From Rothia similimucilaginosa (GTDB lineage Bacteria > Actinomycetota > Actinomycetes > Actinomycetales > Micrococcaceae), in assembly GCF_029850875.1 (NCBI RefSeq), contig NZ_JAOVAM010000007.1, forward strand, positions 1 to 64,000: 64,000 nt of DNA, written 5' to 3'. Each line of letters starts with the position of its first letter. Position 1 is the first letter of the stretch. Both the position numbers and the translations under genes were made by a program. Shown piece after piece: positions 7,513 through 62,034 of this stretch. The notes beneath the pieces were generated by a model. The model saw nothing but the letters and a program-made list of their open reading frames with translations. It made no database searches and was not told the DNA's origin.

Positions 7513-10500
7513 ATGACCACGACTGATGAAACTCTCCCCCTGGGGCTCTACGAACATCTCAAGAGCGCATCGCTCATGAGCCGAGCCATCCCTGAAGGCG
7601 CGCAATGGCAGGAAGAAATCCTCGAAAAGGACGACTACAACATCCCCGAACTGCTCACCCAGTTCTTCGCCACCCAGCTGGCCCCCGCCCTCGAAAGCCT
7701 CAAAACCCCCGCAGACCAGGTGGAACTCGTCAACCGCATGATGGAGCTCCTACCGCAGGATGCCGAAGAGCAAAACGACTCGTTGCTGACCGATGACGAC
7801 AGCAACGTAATTCAGATGCGCGAGCTCACCCTCACTGACGCAAAAACTACACGCCCCGATATTCCTCTGAGCGACGTTGCTCTAATGACGAATACTTCTA
7901 AAGACCTGAATCTCAATACTGAAATTCAGAAAGAATTAGAAAGTGCAGACCGTGTAGATTTGCTCTGCTCATTTCTTAAAATGTCCGGCGTTAATAGTTT
8001 GAGTGAGCAGCTTAAAGCTATTAAAAATCGCGGTATTCCTTTCCGCATTATTACCACCACCTACATGGGCGCAACCGACCGCAAGGCTATCGACCGCCTT
8101 GTTGAAAAGTACGGTGCCGAGGTAAAAATCAGTTACCAGGGCGACAGCACCCGCCTGCACGCGAAGGCTTGGTTGTTCCACCGCAATACCGGCATGTCCA
8201 CCGGCTATGTGGGTAGCTCGAACCTGTCCAGTGCCGCGCTCACTGACGGCCTGGAGTGGAATGTTCGTATCTCCAACCCGATTACGCCCGGCCTGATCCG
8301 CCAGTTTGAGGGCCTCTTTGAAAGCTACTGGAAGAGCGGCGATTTCACTCTTTACACCGCCTCTGACAAGGAGAAACAGGAGCTCGACACTGTCCTGGCC
8401 AAGGCGGATATTACCGGCCGTAAAAGCAAGGGCCTGGAGTACGATATCGACTCGTCCCTGCTGGATGTGCACCCGTTCCCGCATCAGGCACGCATGCTTG
8501 AAGAAATGCAGAACGCTCGTTCTAAGGGTCGTCACCGCAACCTCGCCGTGGCCGCAACCGGCACCGGCAAAACCGTATTCTCGGCTCTCGATTACAGGCG
8601 CCTCTGCGAGCAGTCCGGCAAAAAGCTGAAGCTGCTTTTTATTGCGCACCGCAAAGAAATCCTTGACCAGGCGCGCCGCACTTTCGGCGACGTCATGCTA
8701 AAAGGTAATTTCGGTGAGCTCCTGACCGGCGGCAAAAAGCCTGAATACAATGAGGCTGTTTTTGCAACCATTCAAACATTGTCAGGTGCCGCCCTCGAAA
8801 ACTATGCACCGGACTATTTCGACGTCATCATCATGGACGAATGTCACCACATTGAAGCTGCCAGCTGGGACAAAGTTTTCAACTATTTTAAGCCCCGCGA
8901 TTTTATCGGCCTGACCGCAACCCCCGAGCGAGAAGACGGGGTGAACATCGCCGACAAGTACTTTGGCGGCTACGTGGCAACCTCTATCCGCCTGTGGGAC
9001 GCACTCGAAGACAACCTCCTCGTACCCTTCCAGTACTTCGGTATTGCCGACGGCACCGACCTGCGCCACATCAACATTCGGGGTGGCCGGTACGACGAAA
9101 ACGACCTGGCAAAACGGTACACCGACCATGAAGATGCTAAACGCCGCCTGCGCATCATCGTGAAGGAGCTACGCGAGAAGGTCGACAACCCCCTGCGCAT
9201 GAAGGCGCTCGGGTTCTGCGTGAACGTGAAGCACGCCAAATACATGGCACAGAAGTTCAACGAGGTGGGTATTCCCGCTGATTTCTTGGTGGGAGATGAT
9301 ATCTCCAAACGTCGTGATGAGGTTATGAAAAAGTTCATGAGTGACGATCATGAACTTGCTGTTATTTTCACCGTGGACCTATTCAACGAGGGCGTCGATA
9401 TTCCGAACATCGACACGCTTCTGATGCTGCGCCCCACCCAGTCACTCACCCTCTTCCTGCAGCAGCTGGGCCGCGGTCTGCGCCGTGCGCCGTTGAAATC
9501 TGTTCTGACGGTCCTCGACTTTGTGGGACACCAGAACAAGAACTTCATGGTTCACCACAAGTACCGCGCCTTTGTGCGGCAGGGTACCTTGACTGAGCGG
9601 GACATTGAGAGCCCTGAACTGCCGGCTGGCTGTCACTTCCATCTGGACGAGCTGACTCAGAAGCAGGTTCTCATGAAAATTCACGAGTCCCTGCGTATGA
9701 ATAAAAACGCCCTCATCGACACCGTCAAGAACTACCTGGAAAATATGCAGCAAAACTCTGCGGAACCCTATATTCGCCCGACCGTCGTTGACTTCATCAA
9801 CCACTACGGATTGGGACTGCCGCAGATTTACGGCCGTAGTAGCAAGGTGACCCTGCCCGGTGTCACTAAGCCCGTCGCAACGACCTGGACCAGCCTCCAG
9901 GCCGCGAGTGGACTGTACCCCGACCTGGTGGTTCCCTTCCAGGACAATATTTCTCTTGAAGTGAATAGGCGCATTAAGGCACTCAGACACGTGAACGACA
10001 GCTTCCGTATCAATGCCTACCTGGAGCTGCTGAACACGAACATCCTGGAGCAGGATATGACCGATGAACAGCGCCGCCACGCCTGGATGCTTCTGTTTTC
10101 CATCTGGCCGGATGCTAAGTGGGTAGGCTCAACCGAAAGGTTCAGCCTTGACGAAGGTCTGGCAACCCTGCGTAAGAACGGCGGAATACTGCAGGAACTG
10201 GAGAGCATCTGGCAACGCAACGCCATTCTGGACACCAACTCCACCCTGCCACTTTTTGAGGGTGAAGACATTCCACTACGCACTCACGCCTACTACTCTC
10301 GTGAGGAGTTGTTTGCCGGGCTGGCGGGTCAAGGGGCAAGTTTTGGTGTGCCAACCGGTTTCCGGGAGGGAGTCAGAACCTTCAACTCGTCAAACACTAC
10401 TGCGCTTGTGGTGAATTTGGAAAAGTCTGAAAAGCATTTCTCCCCAACCACCATGTACAAGGACTACGCCATTAGCACTGACGAGTTCGCATGGGACTCT

Positions 10501-10743
10501 CAGAGCGCGACGTCCCCCGAAAGTCCGACGGGTCAGCTCTTCCAGCATCATGAAGAGTTGGGGCATCGTATCGTTCTTTTCGTTCGCCGCAACAATAAGG
10601 ATGCTATAGGCACCAGACCCTATATGTGCCTGGGCACCGTGAAATACATTTCCCACGAGGGCTCCAAGCCGATGCATATTCGCTGGTCGTTGGACCGGCC
10701 GATGCCGGCGTCCATGTTCCAGATCGCGAAGATTGCCTCGTAG
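7513..10743 (+). CDS. PLD-nuclease/SF2-helicase protein with DUF3427-type C terminus
   Basis: A 1076-residue multidomain protein. Residues about 120-280 are a phospholipase-D-like (HKD) nuclease domain with HAK (216-218) and GSSN (234-237); the Asp of the classic HKD motif is replaced by His223. A superfamily II helicase follows: Walker A AATGTGKT (347-354), DECHH (442-446), GLTATP (466-471) and the motif VI region QLGRGLRR (651-658). The last about 350 residues match the DUF3427 arrangement seen in such proteins. The family acts on nucleic acid and is often found near defence or repair genes; a defence role here is inference. Codon use between 7860 and 8040 is noticeably AT-rich. It is a single-gene unit with its own terminator. 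Confidence 0.85.
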   Translation: MTTTDETLPLGLYEHLKSASLMSRAIPEGAQWQEEILEKDDYNIPELLTQFFATQLAPALESLKTPADQVELVNRMMELLPQDAEEQNDSLLTDDDSNVIQMRELTLTDAKTTRPDIPLSDVALMTNTSKDLNLNTEIQKELESADRVDLLCSFLKMSGVNSLSEQLKAIKNRGIPFRIITTTYMGATDRKAIDRLVEKYGAEVKISYQGDSTRLHAKAWLFHRNTGMSTGYVGSSNLSSAALTDGLEWNVRISNPITPGLIRQFEGLFESYWKSGDFTLYTASDKEKQELDTVLAKADITGRKSKGLEYDIDSSLLDVHPFPHQARMLEEMQNARSKGRHRNLAVAATGTGKTVFSALDYRRLCEQSGKKLKLLFIAHRKEILDQARRTFGDVMLKGNFGELLTGGKKPEYNEAVFATIQTLSGAALENYAPDYFDVIIMDECHHIEAASWDKVFNYFKPRDFIGLTATPEREDGVNIADKYFGGYVATSIRLWDALEDNLLVPFQYFGIADGTDLRHINIRGGRYDENDLAKRYTDHEDAKRRLRIIVKELREKVDNPLRMKALGFCVNVKHAKYMAQKFNEVGIPADFLVGDDISKRRDEVMKKFMSDDHELAVIFTVDLFNEGVDIPNIDTLLMLRPTQSLTLFLQQLGRGLRRAPLKSVLTVLDFVGHQNKNFMVHHKYRAFVRQGTLTERDIESPELPAGCHFHLDELTQKQVLMKIHESLRMNKNALIDTVKNYLENMQQNSAEPYIRPTVVDFINHYGLGLPQIYGRSSKVTLPGVTKPVATTWTSLQAASGLYPDLVVPFQDNISLEVNRRIKALRHVNDSFRINAYLELLNTNILEQDMTDEQRRHAWMLLFSIWPDAKWVGSTERFSLDEGLATLRKNGGILQELESIWQRNAILDTNSTLPLFEGEDIPLRTHAYYSREELFAGLAGQGASFGVPTGFREGVRTFNSSNTTALVVNLEKSEKHFSPTTMYKDYAISTDEFAWDSQSATSPESPTGQLFQHHEELGHRIVLFVRRNNKDAIGTRPYMCLGTVKYISHEGSKPMHIRWSLDRPMPASMFQIAKIAS

Positions 10744-56354: not shown

Positions 56355-57647
56355 CTATGCATCCAGTTCCGCAAGGGACTTCTTATAACCCTCACGAGCC
56401 GTCAGCGCACCCAACGCCACGAGCACACACATGGCGACCGTGAACACGGCGGGCAACACCGCATTGTGCAGGTCGGCACCAGCGAGGCTCGTTGCCACGG
56501 CGGGTGCTACGCCTCCGGAAATTGCGAAGCCAATCTGGGTGCCCAGCGCCAGACCGGTCACGCGCACGCGAGTGGGGAACATCTCCGCGTAGAAGGCGGG
56601 CCACACGCCATTCGCCATGGAGTAGAGCGCACCGTGCATGAGCACACCGTAGGCGAAGATACCCACCCAGTTACCCTCGGCAATCGCGCCAAGGTACGGG
56701 AACATCACCAGGGAAGAAGCAACCGCACCGGTAATGAACACGGGCTTACGACCAATCTTGTCGGCAAGCATGGCGGCGAGCGGAATCGCAATCAGACCGA
56801 GGGTATTGGAGGCGACCGGCACCAGCAGCATGGTGCTGCGATCAAGGCCGTAACCCTTGGTGGCGAAGGAAAGCGCGAAGGTCGTGAAGACCATGTTCAC
56901 GGTGTTGACCATGGCGCACACGGCGATGGTGAGTACGGCCCGCTTGTGGTGCTTGAAGACCAGCACGAGCGGGGATTCGGTGAGCTTTTCACGCTGCAGG
57001 TAGGCGGGCGGTTCAGAGAGGGTGCGGCGAATCAGCCAGGCGGTCACCACCACGAAGGTGGAGAGCCAGAAGGGTACGCGCCAGCCCCAGGTGAGCAGCT
57101 GTTCGTCCGGCAGGGCGGCGAAGGGAATGAACACAGCAGTCGCCAGCAGCGAGCCGAACTGGGTGCCCTGCAGGGTCCAACTGGTGGTGAAGGCACGCTG
57201 ATGCTCGTTGGCATGCTCCAGGGAGATGGAGATGGAGCTTGCCTGCTCACCGGCGGCGGAGAGGCCCTGAAGTATACGGCAGATGACCAGCAAAATCGGT
57301 GCGATAATACCCGCTTGGCTGTAGGTTGGTAGGCAACCGATGGCGAAGGTGGCGCTACCCATCAGGAAGAGCGTGAGCATCAGGACGAATCGGCGGCCAT
57401 AGCGATCACCGAGGGGTCCAATGATCATGGCGCCGAAAGGTCGCACAACGTAGGCGACGCCCACAACGACCATGGATTTGAGAATGCCAATGGCTGCGGT
57501 GTCTTCGGGGAAGAAGATACGGTTAAGCACGATTGCGGCAGCGGTGCCGTAGACCGCGAAGTCGTAGTATTCGAGGGCGGAGCCTATCCAGCTGGCGAGG
57601 GCGGCTCGTCGTGGTGATCGGGCGGGCGCGTCGGTGCGTCGGCTCAT
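56355..57647 (-). CDS. MFS transporter, metabolite:H+ symporter (MHS) family
   Basis: 430 residues with about twelve membrane segments. ASWIGSALEYYDFAVYGTA at the start and GDRYGRRFVLM in the first loop are signatures of the MHS group (ShiA, ProP, KgtP). The substrate is a small organic acid or osmolyte; the neighbouring shikimate/quinate dehydrogenase makes shikimate or quinate a reasonable guess, but this is inference only. GAAGGAACC precedes the ATG. Confidence 0.88.
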   Translation of the reverse strand: MSRRTDAPARSPRRAALASWIGSALEYYDFAVYGTAAAIVLNRIFFPEDTAAIGILKSMVVVGVAYVVRPFGAMIIGPLGDRYGRRFVLMLTLFLMGSATFAIGCLPTYSQAGIIAPILLVICRILQGLSAAGEQASSISISLEHANEHQRAFTTSWTLQGTQFGSLLATAVFIPFAALPDEQLLTWGWRVPFWLSTFVVVTAWLIRRTLSEPPAYLQREKLTESPLVLVFKHHKRAVLTIAVCAMVNTVNMVFTTFALSFATKGYGLDRSTMLLVPVASNTLGLIAIPLAAMLADKIGRKPVFITGAVASSLVMFPYLGAIAEGNWVGIFAYGVLMHGALYSMANGVWPAFYAEMFPTRVRVTGLALGTQIGFAISGGVAPAVATSLAGADLHNAVLPAVFTVAMCVLVALGALTAREGYKKSLAELDA

Positions 57648-57891
57648 GGGTGGTTCCTTCGGTGCTATACCCGTTGGGATGGGTGGGGTCGCGGCGTGGG
57701 CGGCCCGCGTGGTCTGTCAATGTGCTCTTTTAGTGTAAGGAGCACACCGCCCATTTTCCATAGGGTTACCTAAGTTCCCAGGGTTTGAAGTAGGTAGAAA
57801 CACGGAGACCGTGCGAACAATAAAGAAATTTGTAATTTCAAAAATACGCGACAGGACTTTCACATCCCAACCCACATAAAGTGAATATCAC

Positions 57892-57953
57892 CTCGGCAGG
57901 AGTGTGCCTACCGAGCAGTCACGCCGACCAAGATAAAGCTGGTCGGCGTTTTT
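57892..57953 (+). terminator. Tandem hairpins ending in a terminator
   Basis: First hairpin: CTCGG-AGG/CCT-CCGAG around AGTGTG. Second: perfect CGCCGACC/GGTCGGCG stem (57922-57948) followed by TTTTT. It would end plus-strand RNA entering the phage island, although no upstream plus-strand gene is present. Confidence 0.75.
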
Positions 57954-57969
57954 AGTGTCCAATTCATTT

Positions 57970-58023
57970 GCGGTAGCCCCGAACTATAGACTTCCCGGGA
58001 GGTTCATAGTGCGGGGCTACCGC
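57970..58023 (+). promoter_or_regulatory. Long hairpin upstream of endolysin
   Basis: GCGGTAGCCCCG pairs exactly with CGGGGCTACCGC over a 54-base span, with further inner pairing around CCCGGG. It ends about ten bases before the endolysin ribosome site, so it could control translation. Confidence 0.65.
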
Positions 58024-58043
58024 CTTTCCGAAAGGATTTTATT

Positions 58044-58694
58044 ATGTCCAAGATTGATCAGGCGATTGCATGGATGGAGCAGCGTAAGGGCAAGGTGACC
58101 TATTCGATGAATTATCGAACTGGCCCGCATTCTTATGACTGCTCATCTGCGGTTTACTTTGCACTGCGAGATGCTGGCCTGCTCCCGCAGAATATTGCTA
58201 TTGGTAATACCGAAACGCTCTTCCACGATTTGGAGAGTAATGGCTGGACTCAGGTTCGACCGGATGCATCGGGTAATTACCCGGCACGACGTGGCGACGT
58301 GTTTATTTGGGGTCGCCGTGGATACACCAGCGGCGCAGCTGGTCACACCGGCATTTTCTATGATGACCACGACACGATTATCCATTGCAACGCTGGTCAT
58401 AATGGTATTTCTATCAATCCGCACGACACGATTTGGTCGTACAACGGTAGTCCGGCGATCACTATTTATCGTCCCCCGGCAGACGTAAACGAAGAAGAGG
58501 TTATCTATCGCGCAGCTAAGAATGCAATGAATGCAATCTATGACGAACCTTTCATCCGCAAGGGAGATCTCGCAGAAAAGGCATTCGGCAACCGCCTCAC
58601 TGGCCTGCGCGGCGTAATCCACTGGTTCGACAACTCCATGTTGCACCTTCAGCAGCGTCTCGATGATGCAGAAAAAGCTGTGCGTGCGCTCTAG
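58044..58694 (+). CDS. Phage endolysin (Amidase_5-type) with C-terminal domain
   Basis: 216 residues. Residues 1-145 match the peptidoglycan amidohydrolase family PF05382 (Amidase_5, as in pneumococcal phage lysin): AWMEQRKGKVTYSMNYR, catalytic Cys33 in YDCSSAVYFALR and His101 in AGHTGIF. A second domain (150-216) has EEVIYRAAKNAMNAIYDEPF and is closely similar to the separate 74-residue protein at 60518. No signal peptide, as in holin-dependent lysins. GAAAGGA precedes the ATG. Confidence 0.85.
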   Translation: MSKIDQAIAWMEQRKGKVTYSMNYRTGPHSYDCSSAVYFALRDAGLLPQNIAIGNTETLFHDLESNGWTQVRPDASGNYPARRGDVFIWGRRGYTSGAAGHTGIFYDDHDTIIHCNAGHNGISINPHDTIWSYNGSPAITIYRPPADVNEEEVIYRAAKNAMNAIYDEPFIRKGDLAEKAFGNRLTGLRGVIHWFDNSMLHLQQRLDDAEKAVRAL

Positions 58695-58987
58695 TTAGAT
58701 TTATCTACTGAAACCAAAGAGATAACCATCAGGGTGTTTGGGGGAGGGTCTCTAGGCCCTATCCCAAACACCCATAAAACTTTAAATATAACGCATTCAA
58801 TAAATTACAAAATTTTACCTAATGAATATTTATCGATAAATAAACCAATATAAGTTAATTTACGAATTAAATAGCATCATCTACCTTCAAATACACCTCC
58901 CCCCTAACCTAAATATTAAATGTCGATTTAGAACATTGAAAAGTATCTGTTTACTCTTTTGACTAGGCATAGTATTCAGGAGAAACC
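58695..58987. other. AT-rich gap with hairpin
   Basis: GGGTGTTTGGG pairs with CCCAAACACCC (58732-58773), probably an RNA end of the endolysin gene. The following about 200 bp are the most AT-rich in the island. No coding signal. Confidence 0.6.
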
Positions 58988-59680
58988 ATGAAACACCTAC
59001 CCCGTCCCTGCGCAGGGTGCAGGGAGCCAACCAGTTCCTATAGAGAGGACTGCCGCACCTGCCAGGCGCGACGCCGTGCTATACAGACGCACGATAGTCC
59101 CTATCTAATGCAGGGGCATTCAATATGCCCTCGGTGTTGGCGTACGGCAGGTCTCTCTCTACCGGCAAGTAGTGTACGCCCGGAGAACTACGGGCAACCG
59201 CTCGTAATAGAGAATCAATGGAATCCCATCTATTCCATCTGCCGTGCATGTATCCACGCGCCAGAAGGTACCGTTCCTCTTGATTCACCGCGGGTCTATC
59301 TTCCTGTCAATCCTAGAGCTCGACGAACTTCAAAGCAGCGAATTTACCCTTCGCGAGCAAATCCGGTTCTTTTTCTTCCGCTTTCTCATTGCACGCGTTG
59401 CGAGAAGCCAATAGATGTGGATTCTCGACATGCCGGGCATCCCTTATGCCGCAAGCACTACCGGCAAAAGAAGCGACAGAATGCGCACCAGGATACTGAA
59501 GCTCCAATCGGCAAGAAGAGCGGACAGGATGAGTGGGCCGTTCATGATGCTGGTTTAGCATCATTCCTACACGCACGGAGAAAACGCCTGTCACATGCTT
59601 CAACTTCCCTGCCAAGAAGCAGAAGCAGAGCAACTCTTTGTAGAGCCAACACTATGGTTCACGCACCTTCCGCACTGTAG
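58988..59680 (+). CDS. Cys-rich zinc-ribbon-like protein
   Basis: 230 residues, no family recognised. Three Cys clusters suggest zinc binding: CAGC...CRTC (about 8-22), CPRC...CRAC (about 48-86) and HCTRC...CRKH (about 133-158). The C-terminal 70 residues are basic and low in structure. It is an AT-richer gene than the flanking chromosome and lies inside the phage-derived island. GGAG precedes the ATG. Nucleic-acid binding is a guess from the composition. Confidence 0.6.
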   Translation: MKHLPRPCAGCREPTSSYREDCRTCQARRRAIQTHDSPYLMQGHSICPRCWRTAGLSLPASSVRPENYGQPLVIENQWNPIYSICRACIHAPEGTVPLDSPRVYLPVNPRARRTSKQRIYPSRANPVLFLPLSHCTRCEKPIDVDSRHAGHPLCRKHYRQKKRQNAHQDTEAPIGKKSGQDEWAVHDAGLASFLHARRKRLSHASTSLPRSRSRATLCRANTMVHAPSAL

Positions 59681-59723
59681 CGGATATCAATAATTCACTC
59701 ATTTAGCAGAGAGGCTACATCAT

Positions 59724-60323
59724 ATGGCTACCATTTCGTCTGGCGAGCAACTGCAGCAGCATCTAATCGCTCTAACTGTGGGCACACCAGTGAAGGACTC
59801 AGACCGTCAGTGTCTACATCGCACAAATTTCCGTATTCCACGCCATCAGGCATTATTGGATGAGCTGGCAGATTACGTAGCCGGTGGTTCACGTACTGGA
59901 GGAGCATCCAGCACCAGCCGCTTTGGAAGTCGTATACCTATTTCTGCTAATGCATTAGAAATCCAAGAGTCTATTCGTGCCGTTGTTATGCCCTCATTCC
60001 CAGGTGCACCGCTGAAAAATCAGGTTTCTGCGTGGATTCACAATCACCTACATCAGGAGCTTCATGATGAGGCGTTGGCAACGACGACCAGTTGGATTCG
60101 GGCCATTGTTGCGTTGCGCCATCCCAGTCATGATTTGCAGGGATTTTGTCCTAACTGCGGGCAGCAGGAAGTCATGAAAACAAGCTGCGACGGCTCAACA
60201 TCAATACGCCGACCTGCACTGTATTACACCGCTGAAAGGGCATCTTGTCGTTCTTGCTCTGCTATGTGGGAAGGTTTAGAGGGCATGAAGGCCTTAGCTC
60301 TGCTACTTCATAGCCAGGACTAA
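59724..60323 (+). CDS. Phage-type protein with C-terminal zinc ribbon
   Basis: 199 residues. The helical N-terminal two-thirds and the final CPNCGQ...CRSCSAMW (about 145-180) resemble the actinophage DUF7341-type proteins, in which a zinc ribbon closes a helical domain. Function is unknown even in phages. It starts 43 bases after the preceding Cys-rich gene, so they are probably co-transcribed. A terminator follows at 60441. Confidence 0.6.
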   Translation: MATISSGEQLQQHLIALTVGTPVKDSDRQCLHRTNFRIPRHQALLDELADYVAGGSRTGGASSTSRFGSRIPISANALEIQESIRAVVMPSFPGAPLKNQVSAWIHNHLHQELHDEALATTTSWIRAIVALRHPSHDLQGFCPNCGQQEVMKTSCDGSTSIRRPALYYTAERASCRSCSAMWEGLEGMKALALLLHSQD

Positions 60324-60440
60324 TACTGTCCGCATTAAACTTCTGCCTGTGAAAATAGGTAAGCGTTCCAGTAGGATTACATCATTTTCCCAGGCAGATA
60401 AAGCTACCGCAGGAAGCTGTTATTTCACTGCTGTAGTTCA

Positions 60441-60469
60441 CCCCGTCAGGTTTATCCTGGCGGGGTTTT
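60441..60469 (+). terminator. Terminator inside the phage island
   Basis: CCCCG-T-CAGG pairs with CCTG-G-CGGGG (one wobble) around TTTAT, followed by TTTT. Confidence 0.85.
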
Positions 60470-60479
60470 CTGTTAAACC

Positions 60480-60496
60480 GCAGCTATCATAGCTGC
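60480..60496. promoter_or_regulatory. Palindrome before 60518 gene
   Basis: GCAGCTAT-C-ATAGCTGC, 8-bp perfect arms, 21 bases upstream of the ATG. It may be an operator or a translational hairpin like the one before the endolysin. Confidence 0.55.
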
Positions 60497-60517
60497 CCAA
60501 CCGCCAAGGAGATTATC

Positions 60518-60742
60518 ATGGCACCTATTTCTGAAGCATCCGCCTACCGCGCAGCACATCGAGCCCTAACCGATGTGTATAACGAGCCCTTTGTTCGAGA
60601 GGGTCATCTTGCGGTTGCTAAATTTGGCAATGCTACTGTCAACACTCGAACCGTTGTGGAATGGTTCGATTATCAGGTGATTCTCATTGCTAAGCGTATT
60701 GAAGATATCGAGAAGCTCGCAAAGTCAAAGCGCCGTGCTTAG
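60518..60742 (+). CDS. Free-standing copy of the endolysin C-terminal domain
   Basis: 74 residues. Nearly its whole length aligns with endolysin residues 150-216: shared YRAA, EPF-R-G, FGN, WFD and D-EK, by eye about 40 percent identity. It has no signal or membrane segment. The stop overlaps the GTG of the holin-like gene by eight bases, so translation is coupled. The role of the shared domain is unknown; wall binding, oligomerisation or holin contact are possible. AAGGAG precedes the ATG. Confidence 0.75.
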   Translation: MAPISEASAYRAAHRALTDVYNEPFVREGHLAVAKFGNATVNTRTVVEWFDYQVILIAKRIEDIEKLAKSKRRA

Positions 60743-60947
60743 ACACCGTCCGGAATGGCGTAAGCAGCTGTACGCGGTCATTCCAGCTACCACTGCCGTC
60801 CTGCAGACCTACGGAATCCTCACGCAGGAGCAGGCTAGTGTGTGGGCTGGTCTCGCGATAGCCCTCTGGGGTTTGTGGATAGCTTGGGCTAACACCGACC
60901 ATACTTGCAAGCCCCGCAATACTACGCATATCCCTCCTCATCAGTAG
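60735..60947 (+). CDS. Holin-like protein
   Basis: 70 residues from a GTG that overlaps the preceding stop. A basic start (LRHRPEWRKQ), one or two hydrophobic segments (LYAVIPATTAVLQTYGIL and WAGLAIALWGLWIAW) and a charged tail fit actinophage holins, which form holes that let endolysin reach the wall. Its place in a coupled pair beside an endolysin supports this. The longer frame from 60687 would overlap the previous gene further and is not preferred. Confidence 0.65.
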   Translation: MLRHRPEWRKQLYAVIPATTAVLQTYGILTQEQASVWAGLAIALWGLWIAWANTDHTCKPRNTTHIPPHQ

Positions 60948-60955
60948 GTCCGTCA

Positions 60956-61009
60956 CATACCGTGGGGGCGGTGGAACATATTTCGATTCCCCACCGCCCC
61001 CACCGTATG
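60956..61009 (+). terminator. Terminator after the holin-like gene
   Basis: 19-bp arms (CATACCGTGGGGGCGGTGG and its complement, one mismatch) with a 16-base loop. It closes the phage-derived island on the right. Confidence 0.82.
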
Positions 61010-61053: not shown

Positions 61054-62034
61054 ATGCCGTCACCCCGCACCAGCATTATCATGCCGGTCTACAACACCGT
61101 AAACACTGTAGTTCGGGCTATCGACTCCGTACTCTCTCAAACCGACCCGGACTTTGAACTCATCATCATCAACGATCAAAGCCCGGATGATTCTCACCGT
61201 GTAATTCAGGAGTATCTCCAGAAACTCCAGGACTCACGCATCTCGTACCACCTTAACGAAAAGAATCTGGGACTAGCTGGTGCGCGCAACGTTGGAATCA
61301 GCCATGCGACCGGCGAATGGCTCGCTTACCTCGACTCTGACGATGCATACAAGCCCAACTTCCTAGAAGTCATGCACGCCGCCGCAACCGATGACGTCGA
61401 TATCGTCGGTTGCGCCCACGACATCTACTACCCGGACGGATCAACCCAGTACCGTCTCATGGGCGAGGACGGTACCTTTAGCGGTGATGACGCGCTAGCA
61501 CGGGTTCTTAGCAGTCGCATCGCGCCCTTCGCATGGGACAAAATTTTTCGTCGCACCACACTCAAAGACATCCGATTCCCTCTCTTTAACCGAGTGGAAG
61601 ATGCCGGATACAGCATCGCGGCCTGCACCGTAGCCCGCGCACTGAAGATTATCCCTGATTCCCTGAATCTCTACTCCGTTAACCCCGAATCTATCACTTG
61701 GGGTTCTACTCCTCCTTTCGAAGATCTAGTCGCCTTCATGGATTACGTGGATGCGACAGTAGATGCTCCCCACGCCGGCAAGAAGGTTCGGACCGCGCTT
61801 GCCATCTCGCGCATCATCAATTTTGTGAACAGCGGTAATAGCATCCTGCGACAGAATCCTCCCGGGGGTAAAGAATTCCTACATCGCTGCCGCCAAGAAA
61901 TTACACCCCATACCCTATACCTTGCGATGTCCGCCGGTTCCGTCTATGGATTTGCAGGTGCGCTCTTCAAATATTTCCCCAAAATCTATTACCCCATCTA
62001 TCGGACATATATTAAGCGCACCTACGGAATGTAG
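61054..62034 (+). CDS. Family 2 glycosyltransferase
   Basis: 326 residues. GT-A fold: SIIMPVYNT (6-14), the nucleotide-binding DSDDA near residue 92, and an acceptor region after it. It probably adds a sugar to a cell-surface polysaccharide or teichoic-type polymer, working at the inner membrane surface. GAGG precedes the ATG. The next gene is a paralogue starting 42 bases downstream. Donor and acceptor are unknown. Confidence 0.88.
   Translation: MPSPRTSIIMPVYNTVNTVVRAIDSVLSQTDPDFELIIINDQSPDDSHRVIQEYLQKLQDSRISYHLNEKNLGLAGARNVGISHATGEWLAYLDSDDAYKPNFLEVMHAAATDDVDIVGCAHDIYYPDGSTQYRLMGEDGTFSGDDALARVLSSRIAPFAWDKIFRRTTLKDIRFPLFNRVEDAGYSIAACTVARALKIIPDSLNLYSVNPESITWGSTPPFEDLVAFMDYVDATVDAPHAGKKVRTALAISRIINFVNSGNSILRQNPPGGKEFLHRCRQEITPHTLYLAMSAGSVYGFAGALFKYFPKIYYPIYRTYIKRTYGM

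Follow-up and report, generated by a model that had tools for sequence, protein, structure and literature searches.

The lysin C-terminal domain is encoded a second time ahead of the holin gene

A phage-type lysis cassette occupies positions 58044–60947 of a 64,000-nucleotide stretch of the Rothia similimucilaginosa contig NZ_JAOVAM010000007.1, hereafter the window, which belongs to a genome of 2.05 Mb (G000). The cassette encodes an endolysin and, as a separate gene 1.8 kb downstream, a small protein that is a free-standing copy of the endolysin C-terminal domain; we refer to this protein as the orphan, and its gene overlaps that of a holin. Our tentative reading, to which we give a probability of about 0.42, is that the cassette is a lysis island of prophage origin, in which the orphan arose by duplication of the lysin C terminus and pairs with the lysin as a subunit.

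The orphan (60518–60742, + strand, 74 amino acids) was defined as an open reading frame (ORF) and characterized by BLASTP, comparison with shuffled sequences and AF2 modeling. BLASTP aligned it with residues 155–215 of the lysin (58506–58688, + strand) with 25 of 61 residues identical (41%) and an E value of 1e-17, and the alignment score lies 29 standard deviations above 500 shuffles. The original prediction, made from the DNA letters alone, that this protein is nearly the whole second domain of the endolysin is upheld by this homology far above chance. Only two copies of the domain, those of the lysin and the orphan, were found in the window's genome. The orphan stop overlaps by 8 nucleotides the likeliest start of the holin gene (GTG at 60735, chosen by eye; the longest ORF begins at a TTG at 60687), a reading-frame overlap that makes translational coupling of the two plausible.

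The ORF list and profile scans give five genes in the cassette, all open and all on the + strand, encoding the endolysin, a zinc-ribbon-like protein, a DUF7341/DUF7340 protein, the orphan and the holin. The 216-residue endolysin (58044–58694, identified by ORF, Pfam and alignment) matches Pfam Amidase_5 (PF05382) with an E value of 3.4e-54 and 183 bits against a curated cut-off of 21, and is the one Amidase_5 match in its genome. Its Cys33, His101 and His114 are conserved in the lysin alignment and provide the catalytic Cys and His residues, the triad used for comparison being that of the Pal lysin (PMC8586454, in excerpt). The holin (60735–60947) was assigned from the sequence and from profile matches to PF23809 Phage_holin_9 (8.6e-10, 39 bits against a cut-off of 27, using the longer TTG start) and phrog_565 (4.4e-12); it is a phage holin by family, and membrane hole formation is predicted for it. 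The genes for the lysin, orphan and holin do not form an adjacent set: the zinc-ribbon-like and DUF7341/DUF7340 ORFs separate the lysin from the orphan.

The cassette is inserted between chromosomal genes

Comparisons were made within a set of one genome per species, comprising the window genome and 34 other Rothia genomes. Homology with the sister genome G034, whose aroE is 95% identical, ends at 57790 and resumes at 61000, and there the glycosyltransferase genes directly adjoin the MFS gene. For G021 and G009 homology ends at 57793, and neither the cassette nor these glycosyltransferases are present at the site. Because homology with these three genomes breaks in this way, we regard the cassette as an insert of ~3.2 kb (57791–60999, unstranded, bounded by homology breakpoints) between the MFS and glycosyltransferase genes. 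None of the genes of a complete prophage (integrase, packaging, capsid, tail) was found among the five scanned cassette genes, in agreement with the earlier observation that integrase, capsid and tail genes are missing. Matches of the lysin to tail proteins were rejected as evidence of a tail gene; they reflect common hydrolase domains and are weaker than the endolysin matches. The proposal that phage-type lysis genes stand here outside a prophage thus holds for this ~3.2-kb insert among chromosomal genes. Neither a flanking repeat nor a tRNA gene that would indicate an attachment site was found at the island ends, the one tRNA being in G025 only.

The neighborhood was read in 11 of the 34 other genomes, a nonrandom sample since G010 and G001 were found via the holin; the remaining nine (G015, G034, G021, G009, G030, G007, G003, G024 and G031) were reached via the aroE/MFS side. 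Cassette-related genes are present at the site in three of the 11 (G015, G010 and G001), and there are none in the other eight. The other 23 genomes were covered by genome-wide searches only (domain, Amidase_5, zinc-ribbon, DUF7341, holin and ImmA, on 35-genome sets). A match to aroE was obtained in 30 of 35 genomes, G010, G001 and G029 being among those without one; G010 and G001 share a GDH gene on the aroE/MFS side.

Related gene sets in other Rothia species

Searching with the lysin alignment turned up a lysin of this kind on contig NZ_JAUNVZ010000001.1 of a Rothia metagenome-assembled genome, G015. Here the genes between MFS and glycosyltransferase encode a zinc-ribbon-like protein, a helix-turn-helix (HTH) protein, an ImmA protein, a 120-residue orphan and a lysin 55% identical to that of the window. 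In G015 the lysin gene follows immediately on that of the orphan, in a leader context similar to that in the window (GCCAAGGAGA), and the orphans of G015 and G000 each have their own start and ribosome-binding site. The lysin-orphan pair therefore recurs at the same site, and the zinc-ribbon-like proteins of the two islands are 47% identical. No holin of G015 was matched in the 35-genome holin search. It had been suggested that the trio would be sought in phages and genomes, and that finding it only within complete prophages would count against a separate module. This is not what we observe: the pair is found again in G015 and the island lies between chromosomal genes, but the full trio with the holin is seen in the window only.

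The C termini of the G015 orphan and lysin have another motif in common; an Amidase_2 endolysin of G025 contains it twice and a small G024 protein once. As a separate observation, an in-frame GTG with an upstream AGGGGG, noted by eye, lies at the domain boundary of the G015 lysin (L005 9640–9670) and is a possible internal start.

In G010 and G001, HTH and ImmA genes, which G015 also has, stand divergent from a holin gene beside glycosyltransferases (L061 8213–9591 and L062 8894–10258, respectively). The ImmA proteins are 59% identical to that of G015, and the holins are 44% (G010) and 41% (G001) identical to that of the window. By eye, the two genomes share a conserved promoter-like block ahead of the holin gene, and no lysin or phage structural gene was seen by eye in the 19 kb fetched. 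After the G010 holin, a stretch of 21 residues (L061 9606–9668, containing PGILPLL) resembles the end of the G015 orphan with a tblastn E value of 0.076, which is suggestive only of a scrap of a lysin C terminus. In the window genome there was no match to ImmA at E 1e-5. The ImmA-like genes of G029, G032 and G027 were set aside, as none of the other cassette genes lies nearby; stops in the G029 ImmA match were considered as a sign of decay and rejected, the ORF being open.

Relatives of the cassette genes also occur in Rothia prophage regions. DUF7341 and ImmA relatives are found in those of G006 and G034, both of which have terminase genes by profile scan, and holin relatives in those of G034 and G011. 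In G034 and G011 an Amidase_2 endolysin gene directly precedes and overlaps the holin gene, the place taken by the orphan in the window. The prophage lysins of G006 and G024 have no second C terminus by phmmer. Proteins encoded after the lysins of G006, G024 and G025, and after the motif-bearing small protein of G024, were tried as holins and rejected, having no family match.

A lysin with a separate C-terminal copy is rare

We assembled 97 Amidase_5 loci with flanks of up to 8 kb, including the window, G015 (twice) and many related streptococcal and enterococcal loci. The lysin C terminus was compared by phmmer with the other ORFs of each locus, tblastn missing the known G015 copy; 94 loci were testable, the C termini of three being too short. 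A second copy was found in five of the 94, and the arrangement is as rare as had been supposed. These are the window, two loci of one G015 contig (L005 and L026), L127 and L136, the last two being different in kind. The L127 copy (10478–10675, on an IMG/VR contig) is a separate ORF with a 43-residue stretch identical to the lysin C terminus, and the L136 copy is a domain shared with a surface protein.

Seven of 35 Rothia genomes gave an Amidase_5 match, a strong one in four cases. Among 395 genomes of the family (an even draw that includes the genus), the domain profile matched four, all within the genus, and its first part matched G000 and G015 alone. The orphan, the G015 orphan and the G025 lysin C terminus had no relative in named phages, and an IMG/VR scan, which requires an exact back-translated pattern, returned no relative of the orphan. 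By tblastn, the holin and zinc-ribbon-like protein had no phage record, and DUF7341 had one, a weak match (E 8e-3). No paper on such a Rothia island was found among the papers listed by searches of the open-licence PubMed Central (PMC) literature.

The shared domain is modeled as helical

The AF2 model of the orphan is all-helical, with a helix at residues 43–73, at low confidence (predicted local distance difference test (pLDDT) score 74, predicted template modeling (pTM) score 0.47). The C terminus of the G015 lysin was modeled with a 53-residue helix (192–244), also at low local confidence. The G000 lysin (p 0.0004) and the G015 orphan (p 0.003) show a clear heptad pattern. A sequence-profile search of the PDB with the orphan returned histone H2A (E 0.036), which we judged a chance match. 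Structure prediction, which had been proposed as a check on the shared domain, thus yielded an all-helical orphan, but at low confidence and with no matching fold in the PDB.

Selective constraint on the cassette genes

Between G000 and G015, the ratio of nonsynonymous to synonymous differences (pN/pS) is 0.42 for the lysin, 0.44 for the zinc-ribbon-like protein and 0.68 for the orphan, against 0.25 for the MFS control, and the holin gives 0.55–0.59 among G000, G010 and G001; synonymous sites are saturated or nearly so in several of these comparisons. Between G010 and G001, the ratio of nonsynonymous to synonymous rates (omega) is 0.17 for ImmA, 0.36 for HTH and 0.32 for the holin, at synonymous divergences (dS) of 0.62–1.54. 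Seven flanking gene pairs of the same two genomes gave omega 0.09–0.37 and dS 1.00–2.51; an eighth, a pair of paralogues, was saturated. The G010/G001 switch with the holin looks, from these sequence comparisons, vertically kept. The earlier suggestion of a domesticated lysis module finds only partial support: the HTH, ImmA and holin genes of G010 and G001 look maintained, and the loss of the catalytic Cys in G015 and the possible scrap in G010 speak against it.

Comparison with known lysis systems

In PlyC, the catalytic and binding subunits are encoded by separate genes, and the catalytic chain is not known to carry a copy of the binding subunit. The Rothia cassette is similar in that a putative noncatalytic subunit has its own gene, and differs in that the lysin keeps its own copy (residues 155–215). 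CTP1L is reportedly a two-polypeptide endolysin made from one gene. In E. coli K-12, the lysis genes of the defective prophage DLP12 are said to be kept in the chromosome; such retention is the point of likeness, host and genes being different.

According to the excerpted text of PMC9430671, two-polypeptide endolysins are common, and the extra C-terminal polypeptide, which stands beside full-length lysin and may join the active complex, can be needed. Of the known systems, this is the one that the Rothia pair would resemble most in its working. The Rothia polypeptide is like these in its position beside a full-length lysin but comes from a separate, diverged gene (41%) ahead of the holin gene rather than from the internal start that defines the family. 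By analogy, the orphan would be the gene-duplication counterpart of the internal-start two-polypeptide endolysins, with association between the two proteins predicted. The original prediction had called separate expression of a lysin accessory domain next to a holin unusual; there is a precedent in the standalone SH3 protein of Drexlerviridae, a lysin accessory domain made as its own small protein beside holin and endolysin in 188 of 522 phages and proposed as an auxiliary lysis factor (PMC13164509, in excerpt). Those phages have Gram-negative hosts and the protein an SH3 fold, whereas the Rothia domain is modeled as helical, is duplicated within its cassette and lies outside a phage. The endolysin PolaR, ascribed to a prophage of Rothia, is a dimer whose C-terminal helix is free (PMC10417112, in excerpt). 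It shares with the window lysin a Rothia host and, by prediction, a helical C terminus; it differs in its catalytic domain, of the Amidase/peptidoglycan recognition protein (PGRP) type, and a separate copy of the helix is not mentioned in the excerpted text.

Function of the orphan

We favor the view that the orphan serves the lysin as a helical subunit derived by duplication because of the helical models, the PolaR precedent and the commonness of two-polypeptide endolysins. Further points in its favor are the homology of the two copies, the recurrence of the pair at one site in the window and G015, the rarity of second C termini among the Amidase_5 loci, the Amidase_2 endolysin that stands in the orphan's place in G034 and G011, and the DUF7341, ImmA and holin relatives in prophage regions. 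Co-assembly of orphan and lysin is no more than a reasonable expectation from the low-confidence model and the analogy with PolaR, and the control of lysis timing or lysin assembly put forward in the original prediction is conjectural. Under this proposal, an island derived from a prophage, with no other recognizable virion or integration genes, would sit with the MFS/GDH side on one flank and the glycosyltransferase cluster on the other. Its endolysin would be a Cys/His peptidoglycan hydrolase with a helical C-terminal domain that closes in a long helix. The duplicate of that domain would be a protein in its own right, encoded immediately before the holin and probably coupled to it in translation. 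The small protein may then pair with the C-terminal helix of the lysin to give a heteromeric endolysin, in which the extra helical subunits would set stability, wall targeting or activation. The holin would open the membrane, and the overlap of the orphan and holin genes could set the relative amounts of the two proteins, provided that the island continues to be expressed.

Several of our observations weigh against this proposal. The three sister genomes G034, G021 and G009 are without the island, and Amidase_5 lysin was not found in G010 or G001 in the 35-genome search. The catalytic Cys, present in the other 17 of 18 aligned lysins, is replaced by Tyr in the G015 lysin (L005 9314–10126), which is otherwise well conserved. 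Confidence in the orphan model is low, the fold had no match in the PDB and none of significance in BFVD, and the heptad pattern is not clear in the window orphan (p 0.25) or the G015 lysin (p 0.32). The orphan is the least constrained of the genes compared, and the window and G015 orphans are not each other's closest copy. Finally, a consensus scan of the sequence gave no excess of expression signals over shuffles, with 2 promoter-like sites against 4.0 expected and 3 terminator-like sites against 3.1.

The main rival, a serious possibility that stops short of being probable, is that the island is a decaying prophage remnant with no present function. Internal deletions would have spared the lysis end and some early genes, and the orphan would be the C-terminal remainder of another endolysin gene that stood before the holin, which is just the place that the endolysin occupies in the G034 and G011 prophage regions. 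The match of gene kinds to the G006 and G034 prophage regions, the absence from three sisters, the lysin-like stretch after the G010 holin and the fact that three different gene sets occur in four genomes all fit decay, as does the G015 lysin, since the C34A mutant of Pal is practically inactive (PMC8586454, in excerpt). Against this stand the five open ORFs of the window, the own start and ribosome-binding site of both orphans, the pN/pS of the lysin and zinc-ribbon-like protein (0.42–0.44, at saturated synonymous sites) and the omega of 0.17–0.36 in G010 and G001. The latter values, above all that of ImmA, would also suit a domesticated host lysis switch, in which a repressor and an ImmA-type protease control the holin (and in some species a lysin) for programmed lysis, release of DNA or vesicles, or use of the lysin against neighbors, the window version having lost its regulator. 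The divergent HTH-ImmA and holin genes beside glycosyltransferases, with their conserved promoter-like block, favor such a switch, and dS does not exceed that of most flanking genes, consistent with vertical descent. We consider it unlikely all the same, as the window genome has no ImmA match, the gene sets vary from genome to genome, and constraint on the lysin and zinc-ribbon-like protein may stem from phage-era selection.

A combination of these ideas is also rather doubtful, namely that Rothia keeps, beside surface-polysaccharide genes, a lysis switch free of phage that consists of an HTH repressor, an ImmA protease, a holin and, in certain species, a lysin, and that at least one species has a two-gene heteromeric lysin whose second subunit arose by duplication of the C-terminal helical domain. 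Least probable is an inhibitory orphan, which as a wall-binding or dimer-poisoning decoy would shield the cell against its own lysin or that of an incoming phage. A free, noncatalytic binding or oligomerization domain could compete in this way, and the G015 lysin is itself predicted to be inactive, but sharing bases with a holin gene points to a part in lysis, not in protection, and a PADLOC scan of eight proteins gave no match for the orphan. A defense-system reading was likewise rejected: PADLOC matched, of these eight, only HTH (best 1.3e-4) and the zinc-ribbon-like protein (4.4e-4, over a short stretch of an ATPase profile).

Pairing of orphan and lysin would show that gene duplication, besides internal starts, can produce heteromeric endolysins, and would provide a naturally occurring two-part lysin for Rothia. 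Were the island maintained, the host itself would own lysis genes, in a genus of bacteria from the human mouth. If neither applies, the related species clearly document how a prophage erodes until its lysis end is left.

Other cassette genes, hairpins and flanking features

The zinc-ribbon-like protein (58988–59680, + strand, 230 amino acids) has weak profile matches only. The phage-type DUF7341/DUF7340 protein (59724–60323, + strand) is assigned by profile matches and by its relatives in the G006 and G034 prophage regions. The catalytic domain of the lysin (58044–58480) is close to Enterococcus-type lysins, with identities of up to 69%.

Upstream of the lysin, a terminator-like hairpin followed by a T run (57921–57949, + strand) was recognized from the RNA fold and the sequence, and is absent from the consensus-scan list. 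It is followed by a strong leader hairpin with 27-nucleotide arms (57970–58023, + strand; inverted repeat I1 and fold) just 5' of the lysin ribosome-binding site, and the region containing both (57915–58046) has a fold z of -7.15. Inverted repeat I3 (58732–58773, + strand), from an inverted-repeat search, lies 3' of the lysin and is a possible terminator. A terminator-like hairpin (60440–60466, + strand; consensus scan and RNA fold) and a small hairpin (60480–60496, + strand; RNA fold) lie upstream of the orphan, the latter before its ribosome-binding site. No known RNA family scored above the gathering threshold in the leaders. Hairpins also precede the G015 orphan.

Outside the island, neighborhood reading places an MFS transporter (56355–57647, - strand, named by eye) on the left flank and a GT2 glycosyltransferase (61054–62034, + strand) on the right. 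In G024:C66 (L024 7138–9247), the motif-bearing small protein stands beside a small holin-like protein without a family match, together with two further genes, one ParA-like by its PHROG and Pfam matches and the other ribbon-helix-helix (RHH)-like by eye, with no Pfam match; this region is perhaps a plasmid-like element.

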